From: Scolanthus callimorphus | Lineage: Eukaryota > Cnidaria > Anthozoa > Actiniaria > Edwardsiidae | Assembly (NCBI GenBank): GCA_033964015.1 | Contig: CM066918.1 | Span: 186,001 to 250,000 of the forward strand | Direction of reading: 5' to 3' | DNA length: 64,000 bases | In this document: piece after piece, positions 10,205 to 40,295 of the stretch | How positions within the stretch are numbered: position 1 is the stretch's first letter | Layout: each line of letters starts with the position of its first letter | Notes under the pieces: generated by a model | Told to the model about the DNA's origin: nothing | The model's input: the letters and a program-made list of their open reading frames with translations, nothing else | Database searches by the model: none | Position numbers and translations under genes: made by a program

Positions 10205-10205
<1 letters not shown>

Positions 10206-10253
<48 letters not shown>
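10206..10253 (+). repeat. (ATT)16 microsatellite
   Basis: Uninterrupted ATT trinucleotide run. On the minus strand it reads as poly-Asn in a short spurious ORF. Confidence 0.97.
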
Positions 10254-11232: not shown

Positions 11233-11394
11233 ACCAGAAAAAAATATTTCAAATTGGTTTCCAAGCACTTTTGTTTTGATCGATATCCTCACTAGTAAGG
11301 ATATGGAGAATATGTCACTGAGGACCCGGATGTAGCTTTGTATGAGATCTACGAGTGGCGTATTTCCCAGTAAAACATGCTCCTGTCTATATAA

Positions 11395-11735
11395 TAAATA
11401 GAGGATATTACATGGCCGCGCGGAGATACAAATTTTATCTTCGAGTGTTGAAAATTTATCTCACGAGTGAGCGCAGCGAACGAGTGAGATAAATTTTTAT
11501 CACGAGAAGATAAAATTCGTATCTCCAAGCGGTCATGTAATGTTCTGTTTATTATTATAAACATCAATGAAATACCAAATTCAAATTTTATTTGAGTTAA
11601 GCTTAAAAATCGAGCATTGAGCAAAGGCAAGTGTGATATCTTCACATGTGAAAATATCATGTTATTTTCACGTGTGAAGATATCAAGTTTTCGCGCGGGA
11701 GATCACCCGGTATTTCATTGGTGTTTATATAATAA
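11395..11735. mobile_element. Composite foldback element, copy 1
   Basis: Two adjacent palindromes: one bounded by GAGGATATTACATGGCC and its mirrored GGTCATGTAATG, the other by CAATGAAATACC and GGTATTTCATTG. The whole recurs in inverse orientation at 60117-60428. Confidence 0.8.
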
Positions 11736-11767
11736 ATATATATATTACACCATATTACCCTAAAATA

Positions 11768-11915
11768 TTATACACTTAATGACTGCTCCCGAGGGAAACA
11801 GCGAGTTTTGTTTCCCCAAGAATCTCGATGTTTCTCGAGACGAAGTCGAGGGAAACATTGAGATTCGAGGGAAAACAAAGCTTGCTGTTTCCCAGGATGC
11901 AGTCATTAAGTGTTT
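11768..11915. mobile_element. Foldback element
   Basis: Inverted arms ACACTTAATGACTGC and GCAGTCATTAAGTGT flank nested palindromes (CTCGAGACGAAGTCGAG core; GGGAAACA blocks). Confidence 0.75.
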
Positions 11916-18800: not shown

Positions 18801-21800
18801 TCGGGTCTTCTGGATATGGAGCAGTACCAGATACCCTGATGAATATGTCGGGTCTTCTGGATATGGAGCAGGACCAGATACCCTGATGAATATGCCGGGT
18901 CTTCTGGATATGGAGCAGGACCAGATACCCTGATGAATATGTCGGGTCTTCTGGATATGGAGCAGGACCAGATACCCTGATGAATATGCCGGGTCTTCTG
19001 CATATGGAGCAGGACCAGATACCCTGATGAATATGCCGGGTCTTCTGCATATGGAGCAGGACCAGATAGCCTGATGAATATGTCGGGTCTTCTGGATATG
19101 GAGCAGGACCAAATAGCCTGATGAATATGTCGGGTCGTCTGGATATGGAGCAGTACCAGATACCCTGATGAATATGCCGGGTCTTCTGCATATGGAGCAG
19201 GACCAGATGGCCTGATGAATATGTCGGGTCTTCTGGATATGGAGCAGGACCAAATAGCCTGATGAATATGTCGGGTCTTCTGGATATGGAGCAGGACCAA
19301 ATAGCCTGATGAATATGTCGGGTCTTCTGGATATGGAGCAGTACCAGATAGCCTGATGAATATGCCGGGTCTTCTGGATATGGAGCAGGACCAGATACCC
19401 TGATGAATATGTCGGGTCTTCTGGATATGGAGCAGGATCAGATGGCCTGATGAATATGCCGGGTCTTCTGGATATGGAGCAGGACCAGATAGCCTGATGA
19501 ATATGTCGGGTCTTCTGGATATGGAGCAGGATCAGATAGCCTGATGAATATGTCGGGTCTTCTGGATATGGAGCAGGATCAGATAGCCTGATGAATATGC
19601 CAGGTCTTCTGGATATGGAGCAGGACCAGATAGCCTGATGAATATGCCGGGTCTTCTGAATATGGAGCAGGCATGTGGCTGTTCTCAAACACACTTTTAC
19701 GTAGTAACCGCGGGCTGCGATCGACCAGTTGCTAATGACCAATTGCCAAAGCAACCTTTATTAGGTATACACTGAACCGCAAACCGAGCCTAGTGAGGCG
19801 TACTGAACCTTTGCATGAATAATAAACCAGTTTGAGTTTTACCTCAAATAGTATCACGAACACCAGTCGCATGGTCAGCAAGTGCCAGAAGAAGCGTGTG
19901 AAGTTTCCGTCTTCGTCCCTGAACCCAATGTACCTGCGGTTTGAGAATACAACTACTGTCAAGGCTTACAAACAACTATCTCTGATGAGCGTACTCTAGG
20001 TACAACAGGGCAGTTTCCGTGATAGGGAGTGTTCATAATTGTGAAACTATAAATCTCTGATAGGAGTAGTAAATATGTTTTGCTCAGACCCGTTTGTCCC
20101 AGGTGATTGTATTATGGTAAGCATGTCAGCACTGATAAAATACGCTCACGATGTAAGGTCTAGCGCTTGCAGCCCGAAGGCTTAATAACGGTTAAACATA
20201 CACGGTTTGGGGGAGGGGGCGTGACGAACTGCATATGCTGTTCTAAGCAGTCGGCGCAGTTCATAACTTTACAGGTTATTCGTGGCTCACTCGGCTGAGG
20301 AAGGACTCCAGATGGAATCACACGACCACTGTCCTCATGTTCCTCTGTTTATTGTCTCATCCGAAAGACATGCAACATTAAAATCAATGATCAATGTGAC
20401 GCGAGGAGAATTAGCAAGCTATGTACTCACCGACAGGCTGAGAAGTAGTGTTGGGCGGGGCCCAAGCTAGACTATAATTGAGATAGCCTTCCAAAGAACC
20501 ATTTGGAGATACAATGCCAGCGTATAGAAGCTTTGGCAGGAATTCAGACGTAAACGCGATAAGAAAAGCCTGCGGAAAAAAGCTGGTATTTAGGACGTAA
20601 TATATTCTGCTGATTAAAGTTTGGTAGACGAGACCTTCTTGGGGGCTATGATGGCTTCTTATCAGCCCTTACACACTTTCGAGTTGGTCTCTACGCCCTC
20701 TGAGTAATACGTCACAACGCCCCTTGACGTGCCTATTAAACGCAAGCCAGGGGTAGAGTTTGTAAGATAAACAAAGTAAACCGTAATCTCAGTTTCTTGC
20801 TCATGTCTCGCGTATAGAATTAGGAAGTAGCCCGTCTTTCATGGAGCTACTATTACTCACATTGCTGATGACGGCGAGTTTTGTGATGGATTCCAGGATA
20901 GTGAACCAGACACCGATATCCTGTGCACGATCAGCTGGCGAGCGTCTAAGGTCGTTAACAAACTTGTCAGCGTCGATGCGAATCTCGAAGATGTTATTGG
21001 CGAGCGCGAAGAACGGTGCCAAGGGAAAGGCGGCCACGAATAACGTGATGAAGCCGTACTGAATTACTGGAGAGGTTAAAAACATGCTAATTAACTTGAC
21101 CTCGAAGAGCACACCAAACACGCGCTGTAATCCGTGGCCAGCAAACATGGACTATAGCAATGCTTTAGCGTCTACTTGGCAAAGTCTCCTTAGCATGGCT
21201 GTAAGGCTCAATCCGATCCGATTTGCAGGTTGTGTCATACACTAACAACTGTCGCTCATCCCTAGATAAAAGTTACATCCCTTATACGACTGGGAACACG
21301 TGGGAATGAAGAGGACGACGATGGTTGTGGTGCAATGGTGATGCTTGTGAACCATTTATCACCTCTGTGATGGTAGATGAGTATACCTACCCATTCTAGG
21401 TATTCCTGGAAAAGACCTTCGTTCTCCAGTAGTTCATAGTCAGCTTCCCAGCGAGGCTTGATCTCGTCTTCTCTGCCTTTATCTTCCTTTTCCGGTTCTT
21501 TAGGTATTTCTTCAGTTCTCTGTATTATAGAAAACATGTTTTAAGTAAAGGTTAGGTAGAAATTAGCAGGAGATAAAGTTACCATTACGTACTATTAGGG
21601 AATCCAATAAAAAAAATTCGATCAATTTTGAAATCGTTTGAAACTTACGGGATAAATACTTCTTGTACGTTGCCGATGATTTGCTTTCCGATCATAATAA
21701 CAGCCAGCTGTTGGGCGAGCTCGATCAGGCAGCCGCCTGGACTACACTGTGAAATACACGACTCGTCGTTAGTATCAGTGATACTCAATAGAGTTGTTCC

Positions 21801-24800
21801 CATGAAGCCCAGGCGTTGCAATGGGTTTGGAGGGGAAATGGGGATCATGTGAAGAACAGGGGCGAGGACGTGAGACGCAAGGTCTCCGCTCTGTGTTTTG
21901 CGTTTTATTGGTTGTGATGATATCAGTCCCGTCTTCACTCGTGAAAACGAATAAAAATAACAAATCACCAAAAATAACATGACGATGGTGACACGTAAGA
22001 TCACTTTCTCTCGCAAATTAACACACAAAGGCTATTTGGAATATGCATGTTTACGACGGGAATACAATAAGTGTCAAGGTGTCACTTACATCTTCGTTTC
22101 GTAGACCAAATATCTTCCCATAGTGACCTGGGTACCCGACAAATCTTCAAAGAAAAACGGTATTCACTTATCAATGTATAGTAGACATGAGTAGAGGCAG
22201 TAGTACATTCCTTCGGTCCTTTCACGAATAAAAAACATCATACAGTTCATGAGAAAAGAACAGTGGGTCTAAACAAAAGGTTCAAAGCGTCTTTTGCAAA
22301 AATAATTGTTATTTCGTTTGCTTTTAAGGTAGGTACATGTATTATATATTATTTAAAAGCTTTTGTAGAGTAGAGACATTGTCAAATGAGTCCTGATGAA
22401 CCTTTCGTCATACCTTGAATTGAATTAGTTCTCTCAGATAACTGCTGGCATGAACTTGCATTATTAACAAAGAGCTGTTTACATTGACTTACTTTCCCTT
22501 AAAGAAGGCGATATAGAAAATGGAGGAGTAGAAATTGGTAAACTGGAAAATGAACACTTTCAGTGTCAGGTTGTCTTCGTATTCAGTTTGTGTCCGATGC
22601 ATTTCTATTAAAGAAAAATACAAAATATTATCAATGTGATGGACCGTTACGAATGAATAACCTTTCTAACTATGCATTACAGAAGGAAAACATTGTCGGA
22701 AGAAAACTGTTCATAAGACCTACCCCAGTGGTTTAGCATAAGAGCCAACTTCTCGTACACCTGAGATGTTAAATTTAAAAGTGAGCGATGAGCATATTTG
22801 ATTAACTCCTGTCGAGGTGGGAAAGGTCGATAAGCCTCTTTACTTGTTTGCAAATACTTGGTAGTTGACAAGTGCAAAACGAAAGATTTCTACGAAGAAA
22901 TCTTGCTCTGCAGGACTCCCGTTTCTTGGTCCCCCAAAGATTTCCAGTCTTTATAGAGCTGGATCTTCCAGCTTTCAAACAGTCACTCGTGTCCCCTGTA
23001 ACCCCTTACCCCGTGAGATATAATCTATATTTGACCAAGAGAGCTTATGATAGTATCAGTGATAGTACCTCGTCCCCTGTAACCTCTTCCCCCGTGAGAT
23101 ATAATCTATATGTTGACCAAGAGATCTTGGTAGCACCTGATAGCAAAATCTGCGGAATACAAGTACGACTTACTCTGCTAAGAATCATGATAATAATAAG
23201 ATTCATCACGGCACCCGTCCCAGACGCGAACTGATTAGCGTAAGGCTGCAGGTTGGGGTTTTTGTAGAGGGGATGGATGACAAGAAGCTTGTAGACGATT
23301 ACGCCAACCATGAACAGCATTACTAAAGAAACCTAGAGAAAATATGTCAAATATATCAGGGTCAGGGAAACTGAGACTATAGCCAACATGACTAAAGAAA
23401 CCTAGAGACAATATGTCAAATATATCAGGTTCAGGGAAACCGAGAATAGCTCAAGAGAAAATATGTCAAATATATCAGGGTCAGGGAAACCGAGAATAGC
23501 TCAAGAGAAAATATGTCAAATATATCAGGGTCAGGGAAACTGAGAAGAGCTCAAGAGCAGACCGGCTCTCCTCTGAGTTTACTCAGGGTTTTGGGATTCC
23601 TTTTCCCAATAAACTAACAAGAGAACCAGCTAAAAGACTGGAAAAATGTACTTCTGACGCAGTTAGTCCTATCTATATCACCCTTTAGATTGCTCGATAC
23701 AAACTTTTACTTTCCGTATCACACTGGCCGTCTGAGTTTAGCTCAGGTTTACAGTGCGCCGAACCCGACTGTAAGCAAATCCAGATGTTACGTTTATTAG
23801 GTCCATGAAAGTACTTTGCCTGTTACTACATATCAACCCCCGACCCCCCCCCCCCCCCCCCCCACATACACACACCTCTAATGCCCTAATCTAGCCATGA
23901 CATCACTAAGTTATTTTCTAACTTACCATTCCACAAATAATAGCGATGCCAGATAGAACCTAGGTGAGCGCTTCTCCTCAGGAAAGTACGGTTCCAGCAG
24001 ACCTGTTATTGGGTTTCGCTCTACTGCTGGGGCTAATGCTGCAAATGTTGGTCGAGGTCTCTCCTGAAGACAAAAAAACACATTTTTTTTTTCCGGTGAC
24101 GGTCATATTTCTCGCTCTCAACGAATAGGAAATAGGGTCGCAACCAGATAGACATAGGCTATATACACAAAGAGAAAAAGAAGCGCTACTTTCTAACCAC
24201 AATAGGACGAACAACACGATCATTTGCATTGTGGTTCCTCATCGTGTTAACAATAGAGGGAGCAAACAAGTGAGCCATTGTATTTCGCACCTCCTGTTAT
24301 ACCTTCGTATCCTCGTGTTAAAATACAAAGATCTGATTGTGTTACCTCTTCGTCTTCAAATTCCAACACATCCCATGCGTGTCCAATCGTTACTTCCTTT
24401 CTTTTCCAGTATTCCAGAAAGAAGACAGCTAACACAGAAGAAGGATTATGGATAAGTATGACAATATTTTTTGTTATTGCAATTTGTGCTACCTTCTGAG
24501 ATATCTATCCACTTACCCCAGAAAGAGACGAAAACAGCGTACGCTACTGTCATCGGGTTGTCAAATAAATAAGCGTGCTGAAAAGAAACGTTTAGTGGTT
24601 GAGTAGAACAGTTGTATGGTTTCTCTGACTTCACTGGCGCGAAGCTTTAATTACGGCTAATTTTGATTTAGGTGTTGTGTTGTACATGTAGCAGGATTTG
24701 ACAGCATTTTATTGAAAGCAACTTATCTTCAAACTCCTCACATCAATCATCCTTCTAATCGGCACCCACTTGTCCTGCTAAACAGCGTCAACAACGCTCG

Positions 24801-27800
24801 TTATTCTCGCCGCCGTCATCATTATAATTCTCATAGATATCTGTCTCACTCGTACTTAACATGTCCCTAATCGACCTCGGTATCATCATCGACCGCCACC
24901 ACAACCAGCACCTATGCCAACATCAATACCATCATCACCACCACAGCCACCTATTGCACTACAATAACATCATCTTCATCATCATCGACCGCCAACAGCA
25001 CCAGCACCTATACCAACATCAATACCATCATCACCACTACAGCCACCTATGGCACTACAAGTAGTGCCAAATCATCGTCATCGTCGAAATCACCATGATA
25101 CAAACATGACCGTCTCACCTTAGCCCGACTACATGACTTTTTCAGGTCCCATACGGCACATCCCACCTCACAATTAGGACACATTGGGTACGTCCATTCC
25201 GGGTGTTCGCACATGTCAAGCCTATACACATCGTTAGTGAAAAAGACCAGCACAAATTACAATCTTGAAGACAGTATATCTCTACTTATTTGGAGATTTG
25301 ATTATTCTAGCTTCATTCTGATACAGGTTTGCTTATTCTTGGATTGCAATCATTCCTTTGAGAATTAAATAACAAAAGCGCGGCGGTCATGCTGATGCCC
25401 TGAACAAAGGGAGCAAATTAACTTTTCTTTTGTTCTATATCACCAGCATGGCCGCCAGTGACGTCACATGCAATCCAAGAATCGTGATAATTAAACGGCA
25501 AACCGTTGATTGTTCGTTGTTTGATTTTGTTTTTGTATTTGGGGTAGAGAACCTGTCGTTTTGTTGACTAGTCATGCGGGAGCAAAATGTTTGCATCAGC
25601 AACCAAATAATCGCAAATTGACACCTGAAAATAAGCTCTTAAACGCCTGTTCCACGCTTACTACACTATGAATGTTCCAAAGGGCGATAATTATTAGCTC
25701 TATTCCTGCTTACGGCACTATGAATGTTAGAAGGGCGAAACTAATTATTGGCCCTATTCCACGCTTACTGTTCTATGAATGTTCAATAGGGCTATAATCA
25801 TTAGCTACAATAGCGGTAATGTGTGAGCTACTTACGCGGGTCTGTTGTTAGGTCCGCTTATGGTGGCGAACCCATAAATAAAAACTATGAGTCCAACTAT
25901 GGAGGGCATTATCAACCAAGCGGTGTACTGGCCTGTGGAAAGGAACAGAACGGATGAATTACAGGGACACCTGTTATGTGTACTTCTCAAGGTCAATCAC
26001 ACACCTATCGTAGACCCATATGTAAAGATCCTATTCTCTCAGAAGCAAGTGGAGCGCGTGATTGCTCGTAAATTAACAGTAAACATCCTAGACTTGAAAG
26101 AGAAGTTAAGTTTATTTATCTCACTAGTTGGGGTTGTAATACTTTTGTTTTGTTGTTCGCTTATTTGCAAGAAAAGATGCGTGCTGTCTTCATTAGTGTT
26201 AGAGACTACATTGATATGTCTACTTCTGAAAGGCAACTCGATAATATCGAGAGCTCACGACAAAAGAGACGTGAAACTCACCAAGCCATGCAAAATATAT
26301 TCCTATCTTTTCACCAAAGTACCATCTGGAATAACACCACAAGGAAGTAAAAGTTAATGCAACCAAGTCTATTAGAAATATACAGATGATAGAGTCGGCA
26401 TTCCTTACCTAATATGGTCAAGGGGTTGGTACTTATACCATTTGCCCCATCGAGCCCAGTGCTCTTTGAGAACCTGAAAACACAATCACATGTAGCAGAG
26501 TCACGCACGTTCATCCACATTTAATTTAGAACTCTTTGAGAACCTGGAAACACAATCACATGTATCAGCCAAAAATCTGCAAATGGCGGCGGCGAAGGGT
26601 CCCAGGTAACCCTCGGGTTTCTCGCCCAAAAAAAAAAACATCCCTCTACCCTCTGCATGCAGGCAAGTCTGATTGATTCAAACGTGCTTGAAGTTGTTCA
26701 TTTTCGGGTCATACGCATGAAGTCTTACTTGTCTCGTATTGAGTCGTATCTCTTCGGGTCCGTGTGGCCCCAGGTGGTATTCAGGAGGCAGGTCCGCAGG
26801 GCCCTGGAAAATATGGTCGCAGAATAAGTTACAGTACCAGTTAGGCCGGGCTGGTTTCCATAGAATATCTATGTGACTTGCAGGAAATAAACATTGGTAA
26901 ATCAGTTTTATTTTCGATGACATATTTACCAGATATAAAGAACACTTCGCTCAATTTCAGTGCCTTACTAGAAGAGGTGTCTAAAGAACAGTTTTCACTT
27001 ACCACATGTAATGGATATGCTGCAGTGTATGTTCCTTCCTCTACAAGCCGGCTAATGCCGATCTCACCCTTCTCTCGCCTGCCATACACCGCTGTCTCAA
27101 GAATCTCATTCGCCTAGAAAATTGAAAAGTACTTCCGTTTTCAGGTCTGTCTACATATTCTCAACTCTGTAACTTTGAGATCTATTAGGGGCCGACCATT
27201 TAACTTCTGAGGGGGGGGGGGGGGGGGGGATTTTGAAAAAACATTCCTACACAGCAAAATGGTGACTAAAACCCTTCTTTCTTATTGGAAAAAACTTTCT
27301 CGCCGCATAACTGAGGTATAAAAAAAATCTTGCACGGAACAAATTCCCCCCCCTCCCCCTCAAAAGTTAAATGGTTGGCCCCTAACAATTCGGCAAGCGT
27401 CCATAGTATAACGCGGGGCGGACCAACCTCCCCCAACTTCTGCCGTCTGTCGCAGTTAGGGAAAGGCGTCTAGCCGCCTTCTAAAATAGTTTTATAACCT
27501 TGGCACTGATAAGCGGTCGCACAATGCGCGCCTACTAAGCTGTCAGTCAAACTAAGTTGGCGATCGCTCCGGCGTCTGAATGAGTATTGTCACGCAAGTC
27601 CCAATGCGCATACTATTACACAAGGGTAAAAACGAAAGCCGTTTTAAGGAATACTTACAACTCTTGCTCTTTCGGTGTCTGTAAAATATGTATCAGGGTT
27701 GTCACTCCCTACAAACCTGAAATTATACAAAAAAGAGCTTGTTCAATCTGTGACAAGTGACTATGTGATAGACAGACTTCACCTTTATCAATAGAGTACA

Positions 27801-30800
27801 TAATACATAGTGATTACACACTGCCTGCGAAATAGCAAGCTAGTCGAGGCAGGCAGTGTTGGGGACGTGAGACAGATAGCATACCCTACAAGGGGTGGGG
27901 TGGGGTGGTAGTAGTCAATGCTTCATTTTCCAGGAAACAACAGCATGACGCGGGACTATAATGTTCAACCCAACGGATGACTACGAAAAACCCACATCTT
28001 CTAAAATTGTAATTTCTAGAATTGGTTAGAAGAGGACTTACTTGTTGAGTTTATTAGCTTTGAATGTCGTCGTAAAGTAGTCTGGTGGCATGTTAGGTAC
28101 ATCATCTTTAAAGGGGTTCGGAAGATGGAACTTTTTCAACATTCTCTCTGTCCAATTGATCTTCACACCAGTTCGTATCTGAGGTGAAAAAAAAAACAAT
28201 ACGCGACATTACCAAACCATTGCCATAATTGAAACGCAGAGTAATGAATTCGAGTCACTAAAAAACAAATTTAATATTTTAAAGTAATAATTTGATGTTC
28301 ATGTTTTGCGCGCATCCCAAGCAATGCGTGTAGTCTACTGCAATTCGTTTTTAATTCATTAAATTTACATCGAAAAACGGATTTTCATCAATTTTCGTTT
28401 AACGTTTCGATGTCGATTAGTGGCCGGGGAAGAGCAACCAAGCCGCCGTCATCCAAAATGAATCTAAAATTTGAAGCACTTACTTCTAACGGCGCCCTGA
28501 AACTCAATTCCTCTCCATAAAACAGCATCACTTCCCAGGGAACGTGAATTTTGATAAAATGAAGTTTGCTCTTTTGTTCTTGAGTTACTTCCTGTGAATA
28601 AGAACAACAAGAAAAATAAAGCTTTTTAATTACCCTGTAACAAAGAGGGTGCGAAGTGGACGCCATCTCAAGTACGGCGCAATTTACAACCCTGCTACAT
28701 ATTTTTAATACACTTCCAACTCTGAGCACATGCAAGAATCTATCTATGAGCCCCCCCCCCCCCCCTATCCTGCCATACAATCTTAATAATGAGCCCCCAA
28801 TTTGAAAACTGTTCTGTCGTCCCTGAGTACTCCGTATACCTCCTCAAATTCCAGCTGTGATTTTTTCAAGTTATGTGTGTATGTTTCTCTACTGTGAAGA
28901 ACCTCAGGATCCGCTTTCTCCTCTCCTTCTTCGTAAACCAGGACATAATCTGTGAACGGAAGACCGAGATCATACAGCTAAAGTTTTTTGTTATAGCATT
29001 GTAAATTCTATGAAAAGAGAGAAAATTGTAGATCCTTCATTATATAAAACGCCAAGAAATCTTGACCTGTTCCCCAACAGTCCCAAGCATTGGAGTGACA
29101 ATCATATCAAATTTACACCTAGACACCTTACCTATCCTTCGTTTTCCGTCTCTGAAGAAGCAGCCTCTCTCTCCGCTCATGTCTTCCTCGTCGTAATTCT
29201 GACGAAACAACGGCAAAGCTCAGCTCAATTTAGGCAAACATTTTATCTCTGTTCGGGAGAACGATAATGTATTTTGTCTTACCAAGTGATAAAACTCGGA
29301 CTTCTTGAAGAGTTCCTCCGCGTTCTTCTCGACAAGTAACCTGACCCTGTCCCCTGCACGCTTGACGATCTGAACCGCCGCATCTTGAGGAACATTACGG
29401 ACATCTACGCCATTTATCTACACAGAACAAACAAGACACAATAACTTCATTAGCATCGACTTGGAGAGATAAGTGAGGCAGGGTGCATATTGACTGCTGG
29501 CGTTTCTTAGTACACGGCTCGTGTCCCTGAATGGTGGCAAGAGACTTGTTTAGTCGATTGTCTCCAAATGAGACTGCATTCCATACTTTGCCTTTAAAGG
29601 AGTTTGAAAACGTTTTCTCTTTGTGATAGAATGACGGAAATAGGCAGGATTTTGGCAATATTTTTTACCAGTGCAAATAGCTTCCTGTACGCTCTGCGTA
29701 CCTATGTTTTTTTTTACCAGTGCTATTAGTTGGATCAACAAACAAACAGAACAAATGGAAACAACGCCCAGCACCGCTTATAATTCAAATGTCTGTGATT
29801 CTTTGTATATCTTGACAAATTCTCTGTAAAACCAAAGCCAGGTATCCTGGCTCCTACCTCAAGTATACGATCTCCGGGCTGTAGCCGTGATTCTCGGGCT
29901 GCAGGGCTGCCGCGTTTGATTGACGTGATAAAAATACCCGGATGATAACGCATGTAATTTGCATCGTTGCCGCCGCGAATGTTGAAACCGAGACCTGAAA
30001 TTGCATCCAAAGGGAAACAATTCAATCTGAGTGTTATTGAGTTTATACCTAGAATTGATCGCTGATAGACGTCCAGTACAAAATGTCAGATTGCTTGAAG
30101 ACGGAGCAAGAAACGGCAGAAACTGGTAATGCCGATCCGTGTTGTGATGCTCTAAGTACGACACGCAATGCGCAAACCTGCTTATCAAATTGCCATCTCC
30201 CAGAAAAGAAGCGCGATTCCACATTTCCGCTCGAATTATCGTAGATTATTGTATTTTTGTATAGATATTCTTCAGGTATCCCTCTTTGCTCCTCTTTGTG
30301 GGTTCTCTCTACCCTTTGGGTGGAATAAAACTGCAATCATACCTTCATTTGGGTCCTTCTTCAAATCTATTGTCAGTTCCTGCCCTCTAACACTGTCCAC
30401 TGCCCCTTCCTGGGCTTGTTTCTGGGTAAAGAATAAATCGTTATTTTCCATGATAGTTTTTACAAGTAGACAAATGCTAGCACAGAATTGATAAAAATAT
30501 CTACCCCTTATGACTGAGGTAGGCATTGGAATTTGAAGAGGGGAAAGTCCGGGTAAATTTCTCCTTTTTCGAGAGGGTCTGTGCCCTATTTTCCAAAGGA
30601 TTGTAGTGCAAGTGCGATAAATAGGCGAGGTCTATGGGTCTTCTAACACTCCACACGTTTTAGTGGTGTCCTCGAAGCCCCGGATTTTCAGTAACAAATC
30701 ATGATTTTGTATTTCACTGATGTTTGTATAATAATCCGAACATTACATGACCGCTTGGAGATACGAATTTTATCTTCTCGTGTTAAACATTTATCCCAAT

Positions 30801-33800
30801 CGTTCGCTGCGCTCACTCGTGAGATAATTTTTCAATACTCGATGATAAAATGCGTATCTCCGCACGGCCATGTAATATCCTCTATAGGTAATCAAGTGGT
30901 CAGTGATGCTGAAAGCAAACCTCTTGAAACTCGTCAAGCGAAGCTCGTAGGAACGTTCCTTAACTCCGAAACAAAGTTTTTAGCTTTTAATATATGGTAG
31001 CTAATACAGAATATAAGGTCAGCAAAATGAACAGCATTTCTTGTTCTAATCGTAGTGTTGTAGTTCTGATTTAGAAATGAACCCCTACTAAGCGAGCGCC
31101 AAATTCCACTTGAGGAATTAACCGACAGATATGTATTTGTCTTCAAATTCCACTTCAAAAAAGCCAGCATAGAAAGTGTAAACAAAACGGCAAAACTAAG
31201 ATAGAGCGTCAGAATAGAAAAAAATGTATCTTTAAAAGAAGTCTAAAAGCCTTGTCAATAGTTTAACTCACCGTAGGCACCCGGGTTGACATGTTTCACT
31301 TTGGCGCCAACTAAACCGAAGTTTGTTAACTTTTGTCCATCTGTTTAACTGCCATGATGTGAAACGACTCTTACATGCTTAACACCAGTGTTATTCCAAA
31401 AGACAGTACTTCGTATTTCGCTCAAACGGTCGAAATCAAAGGACTTGAAGAATTAGGTATGTGATCTTGGGTTGTATTCCAATGGAAAGGTAAAATATGC
31501 ACATATGCTGAGCAATGGAGCCCAAACACAAAAAGATCAAAGCTCCGCAAGAGTGATTTTCAAAAGCAGTGCAACGCTTCATTTCACAGCAAAGTCTACT
31601 AACCTATTGGCTTTTGGATTAATGATAATATATGCTAAGGATTATCATCTTCCCACCGACAGGCATTTATTTGATATCATAAAATGAAGGGTGCTAAATC
31701 GAAGACGACTTTTCATGAAAAAAGAGCCGTTATGTCGGTTTCCTTGATAACTGAAGTCACATCAAAACTTTCGCCAGAAAAATATCGGGGATCCGCCGAG
31801 AGTCAGTGGTGTGAAAAGAAAGTCCTCGCAATAAGAAAATACTCGATACATGGACGCACGGAAAAACCATCAACCAAACGACAACGGTTCCGTTGAGCTT
31901 TCATTTTAGGTTCGAGTTTCGTGAGTGCGCTGTGGAATGTGATATTTGAAGGGACACGCTTCGCGGTGCACAATAGCGACAAGCGACGCGAATCTTCTTT
32001 TGAACGAGCAAAACAAGTGATAAATAATCGGGAATTCGTCAAGGCCTTCACCATTCTCATTTTATTTCCATCTTTGAACTTACTTGGTTATTTGAACCCT
32101 TTTGGGGGGAAATCAATTTTATAAGAATCGCGTTCATGAGAACGCTGAGACTGAGAATGTGAAAAATAAGGACGTTCCCGTATGTACTGTAAAAATATCC
32201 CACCGCACACACCATACAAACAAAACGGGGATTGACAGTTTTACGTGGAAAATAAAATTCACTTGAAATTTTAAGGTTCTCCATCCAACACAAGAAATGT
32301 TTTTGAAAGTTGCTATTTTTAAAGAATTTCACGAACATTTCAAGAATCCCGTAACAAATAAAGGCTTAAGCACGACCAAGTGCCTTGGGAGACCTTGGCC
32401 AGGAGAAAAATGAAAATTGTCCAAACTCGAACATCATGCGGTTTTTCAAAGTTTTGTGAAAAGTAGTTTGCTTTGAAGATTTTGAATAACGGCGCTTGAA
32501 TAAACCAAGGGGGTTTTATTGTGAGATAAAACCTCCTTCAATAAACTAATAAGAAAAAGGGGTAACAATCTACACTAGATAAACTATAAAGCTACTTTTA
32601 CAGTAATAATAGTACAGAAACGTCTGTATATATTGAATCATTCTGTAATGATGAGCTGCACTCAGTCATTCCGACAACATAGAGCTTAATGATCGAGGAC
32701 TTACCACAGCTGTTTGCAACGCATTCTTTTGTACTATCAATGAAACTTTTTTCTTGGTATCTTGTAACAACTTGACTACCTCATCTATGGGTATAGCGCG
32801 CACGCTCACTCCGTTCACCTAAAAATAATATATAGATTTAGCCACTGGCTAAAAGCGGAGCTCCCGGTTGCATATTTTTCTATGTTAATGAGAGAAGAAG
32901 GTTGTCATTGTACATAGATAGCTTGTCACCGCCATACCACGTGACTATGGACTTGCACCCCCTTGCCACTTAGAAAACTAGTTTGGTTGTCTAAATTCAT
33001 CCCTTCCCGACATATATTCTTTTTCCCTTACGTAATCGACGACGTCATACCACGTGGACAGAACCCAAAAATGGCAAGATTTCTACCCTAAGGTCAGGTA
33101 AAGTCAGATAGGCTCGATTCTTTGCATAGAGTATCCTTATACAATAAGAAACAAAATAGAAATGAGTATTTTTTTCTAATTGATCCGTCTTTAAGATATG
33201 AGGAGTTACACTTTGGTTGCTGCAGCACTTTTTGACATTTTTTGTTAGAATTGTACAAATTTTGCCATAAAACGATGCAGTAACCAAAGTTTAGCAGCTG
33301 ATATCTTAAAGACGGATCAACTAGAAAAAAATACTCATTTCTGTTTTGTTTCTTATTGTATAACGATACTCTATGCAAAGAATCAAGCCTATCTGGCTTT
33401 ACCTGACCTTAGGGTAGAAATCTTGCCATTTTGGGTTCTCGGTCTACCACGTGACCATGCAGTTGCACCCCCTTGCCACTTAGACAACTTCACCCAAGTT
33501 TGGTTGTCTGAGGTTCATCCCTCTCCGAGATATATTCTTTTTCTCCTATGATGACGTCATCGATGACGTCATACCACGTGACCAGGCAGTTGCACCCCCC
33601 TTGCCACCTAGATGATCTTCACACAAGTTTGGTTGTCTAGGCTTCATCCTTTCCTGAGATATGAGTCTAATAAACGGAAACGAGTCTTGGTTTTCCTGTG
33701 GTGGGGCGCGCAAACAGACACGCACGGACGCGCCAGCGATACTATAGTGGGAATACCGCTGAACCATGAAAAATGAAGTCGATCGTATACTTGAGCTATA

Positions 33801-36800
33801 GAGTTCTTCCTGCGATACCTATGGTGCTCCGCTCTGCGGCCTTCGGCCGCGGGATGCAAACGTAAGCGAAAACCTGATTTAATAAGCGCCGTGTGTAGTT
33901 TGTAAATAGACCGGGTGAAGGATAGCCTGATTATCACGCGTGTACAGTACAGCAATACTTTACTTTGAACATTTTGAAAGCATTTCGCAGAGAACTAGTT
34001 ACAGCTTCTGCCATCTTGGATATCTAGTTTGGCGATTCATTTATCGGCTCTGTGATTGGCTGAAATTTAACAATAGCCAGAACACACTAAGGGCGCCTGT
34101 GGAATCAGGCAGTGAAAAGTGAGAAAGCTTGCGGACGAACTTGTAGACGCGTGATAATCGGGCCAGGTGTATGATCACCAAGGAGCATCTTGTGCACTAA
34201 AGCGTTTTCTTTTGTGTATTGTTTGATTTCTTGTGTGTTACATTTGTCATCAAAATACCTCCAATATCTTGTCGCCCACGCTGAGTCTCCCGTCAAATGC
34301 CGCGGTTCCATCACTCCTTATCTGAGTTACATAAATACTCGGATCTCCAGGCACATAAGGCTTATCGGTTCCTCCGCGGATGTTAAACCCCAAACCTGGG
34401 GGGAGAGAATATATAGGTAGCCATGCATTCAACATCTACAAAACAGTTGTCGCCCGCTAGGCAACTAAAAATCATGCTTGGCGACAAGTTTTGAAACGTT
34501 CAAGTAGCCATTCAGTTGCGACTTCATGACAAGCCTACCCCCTGTCTTAAGTGATGAATACAAGAACAGCCTAACCTCGTAACTCACCCTTCTTATCTTT
34601 CCGTAGCTCAATCCGTGTTGTACCTTTATCATCTTCTCTCTCTCCCATAAGTTCACTCGGCTGTAAAAGACACATTAAGACATTGCCTCATAGTTACTAA
34701 CTATGTTTAGGCCAAAAGACCCACGCGAACGGAGCCCAACGTGAGAGAGCTAACCTCGTGAATACCTCCGCGCTAACGCATTCCTGTGAGAGTGAGAGTG
34801 CTAACCTCGTGAATACCTCCGCGCTAACGCATTCCTGTGAGAGTGAGAGTGCTAACCTCGTGAATACCTCCGCGCTAACGCATTCCTGTGAGAGTTACTG
34901 GTTTCTGAGCGAATTTATTCCGAATGAGTTTGCTGCAAACAGTTCTTTGAAAGACAAGATATTGCCTAGAGTGAGAATGAACTACACTAGTACCAGCGCC
35001 GACCGTGTCTTCGCGCACCCGCAAATTAGCGATGAAACCGCGCGCATTTAGTTTTGTTCACGTACCGTGACTGCGTCTTTCTCCACCACAAGACTTATCT
35101 TCTGCAAATCTTGGCGAACAAGTTCAAGAGCCTGCTCTTGAGTTACATTTCTTGTACTCGTTTCGTTGATCTGCGATCAAAACAAATGCACGTGAAAATG
35201 TTTGCACTTCCAATACTACATGACTTTATGGCTTGGGTGCAGCTGGTATCAAATTCAAACGGGAATAAATAGTGAATTTTCACTTTATGGCAAGCGGAAA
35301 ATAAAGAATTGAGGGCAAGGAGAAATGTGAGGAAAAATGAATGTCATCAAGCTCCTGCTCGTACTAACACTTGTAGCCATAGTTAGTAGAGACTCTTCTA
35401 TCTATGTAGAGACTAGTAGACTAGTCTCTACAAGTCTCTACTATCTATGTGGTGGAAACTAGTAGAGACGCTACTAGATTCCAGAACAGGATCTGAATAC
35501 TGTCATCAAAACAGCGGACGGACGTTAGTGACGTTTGAACAAGCGATCTAAACTAAGCGCAGCCAGAAACAGATTTCATCGTTTGGCCAGCACGTCCTAA
35601 GGGATATTTTAATAAATTGCAGCCAATTGTCGTTTCACAATCGTTGAGCATGATTGAATCAACAAATTTGGCGGCACATACTGAAATAATTTATTCCAAT
35701 ACCTGCACTGCACCATAAAGTTCTAACAAATCTACAGATCCGATTAAGGAGTGAGCCCGACGAACTAGGCTCTCGTCCGATGAACAATCTGCCGGTTTAC
35801 AGGCAAGGTTTGATAACATACAAACATAGAACAGTTATGAGCCAAGATCATAGTAAATAAAGTATAGTACACTGTCTTACCGTTCACCATAAGCACTTGT
35901 TGGTTGGTGTTATAGTAGGGATTTTATGATCAATGGCATAAATACCCGTAAAAATCAAATAATTTAGCAGAATGAAGCCGAAACAGAACCTCTTTTGCTA
36001 AAAATATTGACTGATAACTTAGCATACAGAATAATAATTGCCATTGTCTAGAGTGAGATGGGTCACAATGGAAACAAAAAGATTATGCAACCCAAGCGGC
36101 GCAGGCTTTTGTACTTTGATTTTTACCTCAACAACATAAGAATATAAAACGTAATGAATTTCTAAAGCCAATCTTTAGTTATTCAAGATATTGCCGCGTT
36201 GGAAGTTGCGAAAAAGCGAAACTCAAAGACAAGTTGTTCTAAATTCAATAACTGACGACAGAGATTGGTACACTACAGTAAAAACCCACGTACAAGAGCC
36301 TAAAATTTTAGCCTAAACAGGTTCTTATACAAGGAAACATTGGGTTGGTTTGTACACTCTTAGGCGAATAGGTTCATAAAATCTAGGTTCTTATATGCGG
36401 GCTTTTACAAAACTACGAACCTCAATGATTCTATCCCCGGGCCCCAAGCGGCCATCCCTGTCCGCGGCAGCCCCCGGGCGGAGTCTGCTGATGTAGATAC
36501 TGGGGTCGCCAGGCCTTATGGGTTTGTTATTTCCTCCAGTGATGTTGAATCCCAAGCCATCTGAAAATGCACCAAGACTAATATTACAACTGAGAGCAAT
36601 CCCAAGCAATCTGAAAATGCACCAACACTAATATTACAACTGAGAGCAATCCCAAGCAATCTGAAAATGCACCGAGACTAATATTACACCTGCGTGCTGC
36701 AGTCAAGCACTGAGACGTTTTTGTTGGCTACAGCGCACTACTGAATTCAGGTCTAAGTGTGGGTTTGAGCAAGGGGAATCGATGTCGCTCAAATGCATGT

Positions 36801-39800
36801 TATATACTTTTGGGGGAGGGGTGCGTGGCGCGCTCGCGTTTTATTGTAAGAACAAAACTCATATCACAATGTACCAGCATGCACAGCGCGCATTCCTATC
36901 TCCACGCAAGTCAAGCGCGTGTTGCATGCCGGTACGTTTGTGGCAAGTGTAGCTCGCGCGCACCCCCTACAGCTTAGTTACAACAACACCTCGTCCCGCA
37001 AAAACATGTTTCTCATCGTATACATGAGGTCCTAATTTCATTCTGCCGAACAGGGATGTAACGGCAAGAGCGTTACTCGTTATTTTGCGAGCGTGAACCA
37101 AGAATAATTTGTTTAAATTAAAAATGCGGGCTTATTTGCTGACAAAGTGACCTTGGCTTCCGTGGAAGGTCTGATGGTATAGCGCGGTTCATTATGACTG
37201 GATTCGTCTTGCCATAACGATAGTTATTTGTAATGCACAAATAACCACGCCATTCTAGCTACAACTTGTGTGAGCTTTCCAGTCTGCCCTGCTGGCAGGT
37301 TTGGGGATAAGTGGAATGCTAACTACTACTGTTTTCCATACCTCGCCTGACTCTAAGCTCGACACTGATAGTTGTGAGAGTAGCACCACTTGAGGAAGAA
37401 TCTACTGCTGGCTGAGTAATGTATGGGTCCTAAACAACAAATAATAAATAAATAAATGTGTCTATACAGTGAACTTCAGCTTTGCCATAATTATGATAAA
37501 TGATAATTATGACAATTGATTGTTATCCCTTTTGATAATTATGAAAATTGCTAATTATGCCTTTGCATCTTGATAATTATGACAATTGATAATTATGCCT
37601 TTGCCTCTTGATAATTATGACAATTGATCATTATGCCTTTGCCTCGAAGATAAAACCAAGTTGATCCAGAGAGCTTTCACGCCATCTAAATAACGCTTGG
37701 AAGGGATCTGGTTGTACTTCTTTATCACAAAAGTGAAATGACTCACCAATATTTATTCCAGCTGTTTAAGGGGGCATGGACAGAAGAGTGGGGAGATATC
37801 ATTGTAAGCACTCCGCTATTCCATGTTTAGAATGCTTATTTGTTTCCAGTGGGAAGGATTACGCGCATGGGAAAGTGCTGGTGATGTTATGCGAGTCAGC
37901 GACTGGTGTTCAAAAGTTCGATAGCAGACAATTATAATAATTCCGACCCTTGTCTCAGTTCGATAGTAGGTAATTAAAATAATTCCGATTCTTGTCTAGT
38001 TCGATTAGCAGACAATTGTAAAGAGTCGGAATTTAGAGAATGTATTTTAAATTATTATTTATAGATTTATTCCATGTATTATGAATATCTAGATAGATTT
38101 GTATATATATTATATTTTTTATTTATACTGATGTGATACCGGAATTGGTTTTATCAGTCAATAAAGTAGATGTAGATGTAGATGTCTCATCCCCGATAAA
38201 GCTGAATGAGCACAAAATCACTTGACAGTTCGGAGCCATTCAGCTCCACTTTGGTCACGAGTGGCTGGCGCCTTCAAAGTTTTACATTAAATGCGAGGAA
38301 ATTTTCTTAATTCAATAACAAGTCTTCGGCACCAACTATAGTTGTTGTTTTAAATTGCTGCCATAGATACTACATGCCTCCATTTTAACAGCACTTCACT
38401 GACCGCAAAATTATAAAAACTAAACTCGGAAAAACTCAGTTTCCATTATGTGAAATCTATTCTAGCCTCTACGTTTGGAAAAAATTAAAACACTGTTATT
38501 TAATAAAATTTATAAACTTTGTTGGGTCAAAAATAATTAATCGTGTTTGAGTTTGTTCTCATTTGAAAAAAAAAAGTTTGGCGTGTGTGAAGCGCTACAT
38601 ATTTTGCTTCCAGAATAGCTCTTATTCTTCGCCTGCCATTTCTTCAGTTTTTCTAGACTTCGTGTTGTGATCAATCATAAATCAGATTATTTTTAAAAAA
38701 ATTCTAAAACCCGCTTCTCACCTGAAGCATTGTGATCCATTCGAAGTAATATTAGAGCCTGCACAGCTTTGGAGATCTTCCTGACTAAAACTTGATCTCT
38801 ATTCGCACAATTCGGCTTTGTTCAGTTGCAAACATTGTTTCCATTAATGTTCTCTAAACGTCCTTGATTTCAAAGCAAAAATTTGGGCTAACGGCTCTAA
38901 TTTGTCGAGTTTACTTAACAAATTTGAATTGCTAAATGATTGTGAAGTCCTGAGTAAACATTCCAAAAGTCACCAGAGGCTGGCGGTTGAAGGCTCTTGG
39001 GAGATCTGTGATGCATGGGCACCCTGTGCCGTTTTGGTCACGACACTGAACAAGTAGAGGCGAGTGATTGGTGTGATTGTCGCCGTTTGAGCATAGCCAA
39101 TATCAGAACAAGAAAGGAATCGTGTGGGTGACTAATCTATCCCTGCGCACTACTGATTTTTAGTAGAATGCTTCAAGAAACCTGATTTATAAAACAAATC
39201 AACTAGTTTCACACGGTAGTTTCTAGTTCTTTCTATTTGCAGAAATATCCATGACCACACTAGAGAATGCAAACCAGACGAAAGGGACGGTGGAGTGCCT
39301 TTCGTCATTTTAAAGATAGACAAAATAATTACTAGAAATGGTTCCTCTGACACGCAGGATGGCTTGATCAGAAACCACAGGGACATATAACTTTATTTTT
39401 TGTGGTCCGGAATCCATCAAATCGCGCTTTCTGATTGGCGATTGGCCCACCAGCGGTCCGGAGCGCGCGCTTATTTGTGTTTATGTGTTTTATGCTGTTC
39501 AGTAGCATGAAAAAATATATGTTTACCGGCTTGGTACAGATCGCTAGCGGTCCAGATCGTGAAATCCGTGACCTGGGCATTACTTCCAAGATTTTGGTCA
39601 CGGTATTTCACAAACCGGATGATGGGAAATAACATATACACCAAATGACTGCATTGGGCATTAGCATTTCTCGCCACCTTTCGCTGCTCATTGAGGGAGT
39701 AGAAATGAATTGAGAGCAGATTTCTTATGACAGTGAAAATGCCGCGACACGGCGGCCTGCAGTCGACCTGTAGTCGCGGCACGGTCGCGACACGGCGGCC

Positions 39801-40295
39801 TGCAGTCGACCTGTAGTCGCGGCACGGTCGCGGCACGGCGGCCTGCAGTCGACCTGTAGTCACGGTCGCGACACGGCGGCCTGCAGTCGACCTGTAGTCG
39901 CGGTACGGTCGCGACACGGCGGCCTGCAGTCGACCTGTAGTCGCGGTACGGTCGCGACACGGCGGCCTGCAGTCGACCTGTAGTCGCGGTACGGTCGCGA
40001 CACGGCGGCCTGCAGTCGACCTGTAGTCGCGGCACGGTCGCGGTCACGGTCACGGTCGCGGTCACGGTCGCGGCGCGGCACAACTTTGTCGCGGCACTTT
40101 TCACAGTCATACGAAATCTGCTCTCAGGGGATCGTGGTCTCTTGTAAATCTAAATATCACAGCGTTTTCCCCACCCTTTACCTCTGCGCTCGATCGAGGA
40201 GATAGCATTCCTCCTGTAGAGCTTGTGGGACTTGTGCGACCGGAATTGTGCGGATCAGTATCAAACACTAGGTAGCTACGCCTTCTTCCAGCCAT
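15835..40295 (-). CDS. PDZ(x3)-anoctamin fusion protein, gene B
   Basis: Predicted membrane anoctamin with an N-terminal array of three PDZ domains, about 1,210 codons. Exons: 40295-40182, 37429-37342, 36560-36421, 35170-35066, 34660-34588, 34395-34259, 32818-32705, 30421-30343, 29994-29858, 29417-29283, 29198-29132, 28949-28840, 28591-28484, 28178-28042, 27716-27659, 27113-27003, 26803-26729, 26473-26409, 26325-26282, 25932-25836, 25221-25119, 24577-24517, 24428-24346, 24063-23927, 23332-23174, 22760-22724, 22604-22493, 22144-22090, 21746-21649, 21517-21387, 21066-20861, 20569-20431, about 20344-20273 (weak), 19933-19843, 16011-15835 (stop). PDZ exons cover residues ~61-371, anoctamin from ~375. 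[19 protein letters not shown] and [12 protein letters not shown] keep acidic residues known to bind Ca2+ in TMEM16A. Frame problems: exon 24063-23927 is one base short relative to gene A, exon 21517-21387 needs non-obvious splice sites, and the 20273/19933 junction does not keep frame. The gene may be partly decayed, or the sequence may hold indel errors. Confidence 0.85.
16396..16615 (+). repeat. 55-bp tandem repeat, 4 copies
   Basis: Units start at 16396, 16451, 16506 and 16561 (AACCTGGACAAGTTATAGCA). Nearly identical; one G/C change in unit 3. Inside the last intron of the PDZ-anoctamin gene. Confidence 0.95.
17850..18085. mobile_element. Element with repeated ACGATTTGTTCGTCT motif
   Basis: The 15-mer GACGATTTGTTCGTC and its inverse occur many times, flanked by TAGTGTGAA (left) and TAGTGTGAAAACGGCCA (right). 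A degenerate foldback structure in the last intron of the PDZ-anoctamin gene. Boundaries uncertain. Confidence 0.5.
18784..19672 (-). repeat. 46-bp minisatellite, about 19 copies, in the last intron of the PDZ-anoctamin gene
   Basis: Unit begins CCTGATGAATATGTCGGGTC and is 46 bp. Variants alternate TAGCC/TACCC, GTC/GCC and GGATAT/GCATAT. As 46 = 1 modulo 3 and no frame holds a stop on the minus strand, it yields three overlapping spurious ORFs that cycle frames. Confidence 0.95.
22982..23127 (+). repeat. ~82-bp direct duplication
   Basis: CCCCTGTAACC(C/T)CTT(A/C)CCCCGTGAGATATAATCTATAT occurs at 22993 and 23075, with the following GACCAAGAGA also shared. Intronic. Confidence 0.8.
23332..23558 (-). 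repeat. 50-70 bp tandem repeats overlapping a splice acceptor
   Basis: ATATGTCAAATATATCAGGG recurs at 23342, 23411, 23461 and 23511 (units ~69, 50, 50 bp). The second unit also copies the first 11 bases and acceptor of exon 23332-23174 (ACTAAAGAAACCTAGAGA), making a duplicate acceptor near 23401. Confidence 0.9.
23927..24063 (-). other. Frameshifted exon in the PDZ-anoctamin gene
   Basis: This exon is 137 bp, whereas its paralogue in gene A (168-305) is 138 bp. It reads normally through [17 protein letters not shown] and FPEEKRSPR, after which the conserved LSGIAI peptide is found only in another frame. The missing base lies at about 23957-23958 (AGG TT- CTA on the minus strand). With the obvious donor at 23926-23925 the next exon (23332-23174, phase 0) is entered one base out and meets TAG after a few codons, which would remove the later membrane helices and the Ca2+ site. 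It may be a true mutation or an assembly indel. Confidence 0.75.
24885..25061 (+). repeat. Duplicated CAT/CAC-rich low-complexity block
   Basis: Two ~80-bp copies (24885-24966 and 24981-25061) rich in CATCATCACCAC. They produce a His-rich spurious ORF in an intron of the PDZ-anoctamin gene. Confidence 0.8.
25336..25495. mobile_element. Foldback element
   Basis: Left arm TTCTTGGATTGCA and GCGGTCATGCTG; right arm CAGCATGGCCGC and TGCAATCCAAGAA. Intronic. Confidence 0.65.
25640..25815 (+). repeat. Degenerate ~60-bp repeats, about 3 copies
   Basis: CGCTTAC...CTATGAATGTT...AGGGC recurs three times with substitutions. Intron of the PDZ-anoctamin gene. Confidence 0.7.
26461..26571 (-). repeat. 70-bp spaced duplication around an exon acceptor
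   Basis: CTCTTTGAGAACCTG(A/G)AAAC at 26462 (contains the acceptor of exon 26473-26409) recurs at 26532 followed by the same CACAATCACATGTA. Confidence 0.85.
27187..27383. mobile_element. Foldback element, AGGGGCCGACCATTTAACTT family, copy 1
   Basis: Ends AGGGGCCGACCATTTAACTT and its mirror AAGTTAAATGGTTGGCCCCT, each next to a poly-G or poly-C run. Shares its internal CTTGCACGGAACAAA with copy 2 at 59472. Intronic in gene B. Confidence 0.85.
29283..29994 (-). CDS. PDZ domain 3 and junction to the anoctamin part
   Basis: Exon 29994-29858 reads [15 protein letters not shown], then [11 protein letters not shown] and LQPGDRILE. Exon 29417-29283 continues [32 protein letters not shown] and ends KSEFYHL at a donor GTAAGA. 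An 84-nt intron follows, then exon 29198-29132 ([15 protein letters not shown]), which is the homologue of the 67-bp exon 6033-5967 of gene A. There is no stop before the donor, and both exons meet at phase 0. Reading through the intron meets TGA. This is the key evidence for the fusion. Confidence 0.9.
30706..30889. mobile_element. Composite foldback element, partial copy 2
   Basis: Begins with a remnant GTATTTCACTGATGTTT and continues with the ACATGACCGCTTGGAGATAC ... GTATCTCCGCACGGCCATGT palindrome found at 11395 and 60298. In an intron of the PDZ-anoctamin gene. Confidence 0.75.
32705..34395 (-). CDS. PDZ domain 2 of the PDZ-anoctamin gene
   Basis: Exon 34395-34259 reads [18 protein letters not shown], then DPSIYVTQI and [11 protein letters not shown]; exon 32818-32705 continues [18 protein letters not shown] and [11 protein letters not shown]. 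The preceding linker exon 34660-34588 ends IELRKDKK plus one base, giving a phase-1 intron just before GLGF, as in PDZ1 and PDZ3. Helix alpha-B appears to begin with Ile, not His. High confidence as a PDZ domain. Confidence 0.92.
32933..33680 (+). repeat. ~120-bp tandem repeat, 3 copies, interrupted by a palindrome
   Basis: CATACCACGTGAC...TTGCACCCCCTTGCCAC...GTTTGGTTGTCT recurs at about 32933, 33446 and 33569; the palindrome 33059-33444 lies between copies 1 and 2. In an intron between PDZ2 exons. Confidence 0.8.
33059..33444. mobile_element. Large palindromic element, ~170-bp arms
   Basis: Left arm from GAACCCAAAAATGGCAAGAT, right arm ending ATCTTGCCATTTTGGGTTC. The arms agree over about 170 bp with few mismatches around a short spacer. 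It interrupts a ~120-bp tandem repeat array. Confidence 0.85.
34749..34901 (+). repeat. 51-bp tandem repeat, 3 copies
   Basis: Units begin GCTAACCTCGTGAATACCTC at 34749, 34800 and 34851. Perfect or nearly so. In an intron of the PDZ-anoctamin gene; the local ORF is an artefact. Confidence 0.93.
36421..37429 (-). CDS. PDZ domain 1 of the PDZ-anoctamin gene (first part; ends in exon 35066-35170)
   Basis: Exon 37429-37342 ends in VELRVRR and carries one base into exon 36560-36421, which reads [10 protein letters not shown] and later PGDRIIE. Exon 35170-35066 supplies the rest ([22 protein letters not shown]). GLGF is the carboxylate-binding loop of PDZ domains, which bind C-terminal peptides of partner proteins. 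The overall pattern resembles SYNJ2BP/Dlg-type PDZ domains ([24 protein letters not shown]). The first residue of helix alpha-B appears to be Gln rather than the His of class I domains, so the ligand class is probably not class I (inference). Confidence 0.9.
36551..36700 (-). repeat. 50-bp tandem repeat overlapping the PDZ1 exon acceptor
   Basis: CCCAAGC(C/A)ATCTGAAAATG starts at 36551, 36601 and 36651. The first copy contains the exon start and acceptor at 36560/36561; the other two duplicate the acceptor-like sequence upstream. Confidence 0.9.
37490..37640 (+). repeat. AT-rich ~38-bp tandem repeats
   Basis: TGATAATTATGACAATTGAT followed by (A/C)TTATGCCTTTGC recurs about four times. In intron 1 of the PDZ-anoctamin gene. 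Confidence 0.8.
39741..40080 (-). repeat. GC-rich 43-bp minisatellite, 7 copies, plus CGGTCA/CGGTCG run
   Basis: The core GGCGGCCTGCAGTCGACCTG recurs at 39751, 39794, 39837, 39874, 39918, 39961 and 40004 (one unit is 37 bp). It ends in short CACGGT/CGCGGT repeats to 40078. It is CpG-dense and lies in intron 1, about 100 bp past the first coding exon of the PDZ-anoctamin gene. Apparent ORFs here are repeat artefacts. Confidence 0.93.

Follow-up and report, generated by a model that had tools for sequence, protein, structure and literature searches.

Gene content of the locus

The window, which is the whole stretch of 64,000 nucleotides analysed here, corresponds to C8:186001-250000 of the 597-Mb genome of Scolanthus callimorphus, and positions are those of the window unless another contig is named. 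Two anoctamin genes lie in tandem on its minus strand. Gene B has 34 exons between 40295 and 15835 (24.5 kb); all 33 introns of the spliced model are GT-AG, and the spliced translation of exons 1-23 gave 747 codons without a stop. The 34-exon model was 86% identical to the Nematostella protein P0001 over its whole length, and its product consists, in order, of a leader, PDZ1-PDZ2-PDZ3, a short linker, Anoct_dimer and Anoctamin. Gene A, an ANO7 relative, lies downstream of gene B on the same strand, and its exon 6033-5967 corresponds to gene B exon 11. The features are as follows.

40182-40295, minus strand: gene B exon 1, start codon and N-terminal leader (aligned with the N-terminus of Nematostella P0001)
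37342-37429, minus strand: gene B exon 2, leader and first strand of PDZ1 (translation, alignment with Nematostella, splice model)
36421-36560, minus strand: gene B exon 3, PDZ1 with GLGF loop, phase-1 entry (Pfam, splice model)
35066-35170, minus strand: gene B exon 4, end of PDZ1, alpha-B1 = Gln (Pfam, PDZ sequence comparison)
34588-34660, minus strand: gene B exon 5, linker and first strand of PDZ2 (splice model)
34259-34395, minus strand: gene B exon 6, PDZ2 with GLGF loop, phase-1 entry (Pfam, splice model)
32705-32818, minus strand: gene B exon 7, end of PDZ2, alpha-B1 = Ile (structure-sequence alignment, splice model)
30343-30421, minus strand: gene B exon 8, linker and first strand of PDZ3 (splice model)
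29858-29994, minus strand: gene B exon 9, PDZ3 with GLGF loop, phase-1 entry (Pfam, splice model)
29283-29417, minus strand: gene B exon 10, end of PDZ3, alpha-B1 = Gln, and linker, ending KSEFYHL (structure-sequence alignment, splice model)
29199-29282, minus strand: gene B junction intron 10, 84 nt, GT-AG, phase 0, in-frame TGA if retained (splice model)
29132-29198, minus strand: gene B exon 11, first anoctamin exon, in-frame internal Met (alignment, splice model)
28949-28840, 28591-28484, 28178-28042, 27716-27659, 27113-27003, 26803-26729, 26473-26409, 26325-26282, minus strand: gene B exons 12-19, dimerisation domain and entry to the membrane domain (Pfam, splice model)
25932-25836, 25221-25119, 24577-24517, 24428-24346, minus strand: gene B exons 20-23, anoctamin membrane domain (splice model)
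23927-24063, minus strand: gene B exon 24, 137 nt long where gene A has 138, with one single-nucleotide frame break relative to Nematostella (alignment)
23332-23174, 22760-22724, 22604-22493, 22144-22090, 21746-21649, minus strand: gene B exons 25-29, membrane domain (alignment, splice model)
21391-21519, minus strand: gene B exon 30, putative Ca2+ ligands in QEYLE, two single-nucleotide frame breaks (alignment)
20861-21066, minus strand: gene B exon 31, putative Ca2+ ligands in FEIRID (alignment)
20431-20569, minus strand: gene B exon 32, with a single-nucleotide frame break close to the 3' end (alignment)
19933-19843, 16011-15835, minus strand: gene B exons 33-34, last helices, C-terminus and stop (alignment, splice model)
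168-14246, minus strand: gene A, tandem paralog without PDZ, running past the low end of the window (alignment, tblastn)
14246-14208 (MDDRDPLAANESL), 7716-7651, 7007-6957, 6033-5967, minus strand: gene A exons, the first of them the likely first coding exon, followed by downstream exons

By tblastn, the PDZ-free Oculina protein matched the putative first exon of gene A (14246-14208), and a YNTF-type exon (7716) and a DPLAANESL exon (14258-14208) were found only upstream of gene A. The 18 assembled exons of gene A, with an ORF at 9051-8941 included, are stop-free, and the rest of the gene had no frame break by tblastn of the Actinia and Nematostella proteins on L017, done without phase check. 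The ORF at 9051-8941 is doubtful and probably not an exon, and its LGFIRG stretch, considered as a PDZ remnant, matched nothing in Pfam at E ≤ 10. The A and B proteins of Actinia come from contigs of equal length (55,985 nt), presumably one and the same contig, and those of Oculina have consecutive tags.

Tandem repeats were also seen in the window. A 48-bp unit in 33 copies (98% matches) lies at 1783-3387 inside a gene A intron, and a 47-bp unit in 19 copies at 18779-19671 inside the last intron of gene B. Partial tandem copies of acceptor or exon pieces of gene B are found at 36548-36692 (exon 3), 23404-23557 (exon 25) and about 26473-26580 (exon 18), and one of a gene A exon piece at about 6909-7088 of L017, and these copies place decoy acceptors next to the genuine sites. 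On the 5' side of gene B there are two intronless plus-strand ORFs (47569-48687 and 57475-58593) of the HlyIII family (PF03006, E 3.5e-27 and 1.1e-28), each of 372 aa from the first likely Met; they are apparent paralogs, which we take to be PAQR-like. Rfam and tRNA scans found no structured RNA or tRNA in the window.

Domain content of the gene B product

Pfam found in the gene B product three PDZ stretches (PF00595, 204.5 bits, above the curated cut-off, E = 2.4e-61), a full-length Anoct_dimer domain (PF16178, 227.2 bits, profile 1-221/221, E = 3e-67) and a full-length Anoctamin domain (PF04547, 540.7 bits, profile 1-460/460, E = 4.1e-162), the anoctamin part being scanned as an exon read-through with frame breaks marked X. 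A sequence-only reading of this locus had assigned three GLGF-type PDZ domains to ten minus-strand exons from 40295 to 29283, and the one consistent frame of these exons and the three Pfam PDZ matches bear this out. The three PDZ stretches and both anoctamin domains were also found by Pfam in P0001, P0004, P0006 and P0008. No SH3 or guanylate-kinase domain, the mark of a MAGUK, was found in the gene B product by Pfam at E up to 0.001.

The anoctamin part matched the ANO1 and ANO6 structures with E values of 8.8e-170 and 1.8e-165. Five acidic positions of the putative Ca2+ site in helices 6-8 match in the ANO1 (6bgi) alignment, the residues of which we take to be Ca2+ ligands, and one of the five adjoins an exon 30 frame break. 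The best matches among those listed are mostly named anoctamin-7 or anoctamin-7-like, which suggests an ANO7-type anoctamin.

The GLGF carboxylate loop is kept in all three PDZ domains. Class-I PDZ domains carry His at alpha-B1, and this residue is Gln, Ile and Gln in PDZ1, PDZ2 and PDZ3 of the window, so the class-I His is found in none of them. The call was made from a PSD-95 alignment for PDZ2 and PDZ3, in which PSD-95 has His where the window has Ile and Gln, and from PDZ sequence comparison for PDZ1. At the PDZ1 position Nematostella has Gln, the octocoral has Arg, and Actinia and six stony-coral or species-unassigned rows have His. The pockets of the window copy therefore suggest that its partners are probably not just class-I tails. 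Nor is the protein's own C-terminus, DDVLVAIG, recognisable as a class-I ligand.

The same architecture in other anthozoans

Proteins matching both PF00595 and PF04547, which the sequence-only reading had proposed to look for in other cnidarians, numbered nine among the 120 listed, and the same nine and no other appeared in each of three 120-protein lists. Each list holds the best 120 of about 8,000 candidates scored, clustered at 90% identity, and absence below means absence among the matches listed. The nine clusters are as follows.

P0001: Nematostella vectensis
P0002: Actinia tenebrosa
P0003: Montipora foliosa
P0005: Oculina patagonica
P0007: Pocillopora damicornis
P0008: Dendronephthya gigantea (octocoral)
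P0010: Porites evermanni (partial)
P0004 and P0006: no species name

All seven species-named proteins are anthozoan, from the anemones Nematostella and Actinia, four stony corals and the soft coral Dendronephthya, and among the matches listed no PDZ domain was found in medusozoan or bilaterian relatives by the precomputed Pfam column. Among the best candidates listed for the genome itself, PDZ and anoctamin hits co-locate only at gene B, which gives no second PDZ-anoctamin; the next nearest pair of hits is about 0.7 Mb apart, on C2.

At the junction, exon 10 ends KSEFYHL at the consensus donor gtaaga, and exon 11 (29198-29132) begins 84 nt further on at phase 0 after the acceptor cgtcag, as the sequence-only reading had placed them. 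Its statement that no stop lies between the two parts is true of the spliced message only, since the 84-nt intron itself has an in-frame TGA. An intron of this size is ordinary in gene B, which has introns of 83, 84, 88, 119 and 129 nt among its 33. The alignment of the PDZ-anoctamins is continuous over the junction, and the length of the linker from PDZ3 to FRDG stays within one residue from anemones to octocoral.

P0004, an ORF of 1191 aa, comes from a contig of 3,932 nt, and the longest contig of P0006 (1179 aa) measures 4,363 nt. These contigs, taken as assembled public reads, have at about 4 kb no room for the introns of a 24.5-kb gene, so they are probably spliced transcripts; they could in principle come from retrocopies. 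The PDZ-anoctamin is thus very probably expressed in relatives, and there the supposition that joined transcripts might be missing is contradicted by these two ORFs. With nine protein clusters having both domains, including the two ORFs on contigs of intron-less size, the fusion is, as judged from sequence, a genuine architecture conserved across the sampled anthozoans. It had been thought that no PDZ-TMEM16 architecture was described. This stands as far as papers are concerned, as none describing it was found in the open-licence literature, to which the search was limited, but the proteins themselves are already in NCBI/UniProt, where five of the seven species-named ones stand as anoctamin-7 or anoctamin-7-like.

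Origin and history of the fusion

In a tree built from 37 anoctamin parts, a single clade (100/99) comprised nine PDZ forms, hexacoral or species-unassigned, and the PDZ-free P0011, window B paired with Nematostella B (100/99), and hexacoral PDZ-free forms, including gene A, fell outside the clade of PDZ forms. Seven named medusozoan rows formed a clade with P0021 (100/100). The octocoral anoctamin part grouped in the best tree with the PDZ-free hexacoral A clade (94/90), which counts against a single simple gain of the PDZ domains. However, a single clade of all PDZ forms (P0011 included) was not rejected (p-AU 0.083), nor was one of all Anthozoa (p-AU 0.243). In a quick tree of single PDZ domains the octocoral PDZ3 grouped with hexacoral PDZ3 (SH-aLRT 95); PDZ1 and PDZ2 had no such placement.

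A short N-terminus with the YNTF motif and DEDMSGERG is common to hexacoral A proteins (Oculina, Acropora and window A) and several Medusozoa, and Actinia A is without the YNTF motif. As gene A thus begins as medusozoan proteins do, it seems that anthozoans gained the PDZ exons at a splice junction that was already old. The simplest account that we infer is that PDZ exons were added on the anthozoan stem, upstream of the old phase-0 junction of an ANO7 with a short N-terminus, and that one hexacoral copy without PDZ, or having lost it, would have given the tandem pair of B (PDZ) and A (PDZ-free).

In each of the three PDZ domains of gene B, a phase-1 intron falls at the GLGF loop, with PDZ1 having it one codon earlier, and a phase-0 intron follows the next strand. 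Among the possible donors compared in the same genome (DLG, SYNJ2BP-like and multi-PDZ genes), the phase-0 border is widespread, and the DLG PDZ2 exon has only this position in common with gene B. Both borders are in common with a gene that we call SYNJ2BP-like, whose GLGF glycine codon is split by a phase-1 intron and whose next strand is followed by a phase-0 intron. This gene, at about 5257-7590 of L035 (C5:1935500-1945400), encodes a single PDZ domain, spread over two exons, and probably a membrane anchor at the C-terminus.

Proposed function and competing readings

Anoctamins are dimers with cytosolic N-termini, so three PDZ domains per chain would give six per dimer. We consider it fairly probable that gene B encodes one polypeptide, a self-scaffolded Ca2+-activated scramblase or channel of ANO7 type whose PDZ array, gained on the anthozoan stem, docks membrane partners. 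By analogy with its family, the protein would be activated by Ca2+ at the conserved acidic site and would then conduct ions or scramble lipids, and scrambling seems more likely than conduction by analogy with vertebrate TMEM16G. For TMEM16G, scrambling is reported in cells deleted for TMEM16F, and currents were recorded in some studies but not in others (PMC8835819). The six PDZ domains at the cytosolic face would bind membrane receptors, Ca2+ channels or junction proteins directly by their C-terminal ends, and such docking would place or cluster the anoctamin, or hold it near a Ca2+ source, with no separate adaptor of PSD-95 type. Direct docking is favoured here, and gating by a collar of PDZ domains is possible. 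A more elaborate version, in which occupancy of the collar tunes or gates the pore of an anthozoan-specific self-scaffolded scramblase or channel and the ancestral job is split between a docked B and a free A, is a long shot.

That a PDZ-only gene and a neighbouring ANO7 gene have been falsely read as one is scarcely credible. Exon 11 does have an internal Met, and P0011, an ORF of the B clade on a 2,906-nt contig, starts exactly there without PDZ domains, but nine clusters from sea anemones to a soft coral are joined at the same site with a linker constant to within one residue, the joined ORFs P0004 and P0006 stand on contigs of about 4 kb, and the gap is only 84 nt with one ATG that runs into a stop after two codons. 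The unbroken alignment, the constant linker and the ORFs on short contigs make two mis-joined genes very unlikely. The same internal Met bears on another reading, in which one gene has switchable outputs: the full PDZ-anoctamin, a PDZ-free form from the exon 11 start, and a soluble triple-PDZ protein by retention of the junction intron, which is divisible by three and has the in-frame TGA. P0011, within the B clade and without PDZ, suggests that PDZ-free forms may exist; yet it may be either a short isoform or just a truncated contig, and in hexacorals gene A could fill the PDZ-free role, so we regard switchable outputs as a tentative possibility. A hidden short first exon for gene B was also looked for with the short N-termini of Oculina, Actinia and Rhopilema ANO7 proteins, which by tblastn hit only upstream of gene A; between 29198 and 40295 there were only matches at E > 0.5 apart from exon 11 itself.

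It is unlikely that the PDZ domains form an internal regulatory collar acting on the anoctamin itself or on lipid in place of partner C-termini. The short linker of conserved length adjoins the dimerisation domain and the pockets of the window copy have no class-I His, which would fit such a collar, but the three GLGF loops are kept, the protein's own tail is no recognisable class-I ligand, and corals and Actinia retain His in PDZ1. Direct docking stays the preferred reading. The remaining alternative concerns the window copy. The 3' half of the anoctamin part of gene B has four single-nucleotide frame breaks relative to Nematostella that the sequence-only reading did not mention, one in exon 24, two in exon 30 and one in exon 32. 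They are probably assembly errors. A recent pseudogene in this animal is suggested by the occurrence of the four breaks inside about 3.6 kb, by the lack of any break in gene A or in the two intronless HlyIII-family ORFs, and by several intact HSP70 frames in the same assembly (the longest of 644 codons). A search for a second copy or haplotig of 21391-24063 to compare, in which 40 of 240 candidates were scored, matched at 100% only the window itself, the other matches being pieces of gene A and a short repeat. However, GT-AG borders are kept at all 33 introns, the part best conserved relative to Nematostella is exons 24-34 (413/444 = 93.0%, against 325/373 = 87.1% and 290/373 = 77.7% upstream), and elsewhere in the assembly HSP70 loci are frame-broken and near-duplicate contigs differ in length by one base at many places, so we hold a pseudogene to be improbable. 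Intact copies of the PDZ-anoctamin are present in relatives.

As to the assembly, an HSP70 gene is frame-broken near C9:837.9 kb. The stretches C1:43.26 Mb and C83:480 kb, and likewise C6:4.35 Mb and C30:1-1400, are near-identical with one-base length differences and broken HSP70 frames, and these pairs of large and small contigs look like unpurged haplotigs.

Comparison with known systems

The nearest PDZ-free relatives of gene B are mostly named anoctamin-7 or anoctamin-7-like (ANO7/TMEM16G), and among the matches listed the medusozoan ones are 56-67% and the bilaterian ones 40-58% identical in the aligned part. Gene B has the full Anoct_dimer and Anoctamin domains as they do, but the medusozoan and bilaterian proteins among those matches are without PDZ domains, whereas gene B has three. 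The best solved-structure matches of the PDZ part are DLG/PSD-95 (2xkx, 2.3e-45) and SYNJ2BP (2eno, 9.9e-18), and unlike these, gene B has no SH3, GK or tail anchor and is joined to an anoctamin. MUPP1/PATJ also have PDZ arrays, and 'multiple PDZ domain protein' gave the top non-anoctamin matches among those listed; however, MUPP1/PATJ are soluble scaffolds without an anoctamin, and the matches so named are 23-31% identical.

PDZ domains usually reach ion channels as separate adaptors on the channel tail. Vertebrate TMEM16B (ANO2) is reportedly found in a PSD-95 complex at photoreceptor terminals, which likewise brings an anoctamin near a DLG-type PDZ, but the adaptor is a separate protein there and the PDZ domains of gene B are in the chain. 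The PDZ-anoctamin is already in databases, mostly as anoctamin-7, with its architecture unremarked there. It would be a natural covalent form of the anoctamin-scaffold complex, conserved from sea anemones and stony corals to a soft coral, and the PDZ-free tandem sister gene A would serve as a built-in control for what scaffolding contributes to the placement and activity of an anoctamin.
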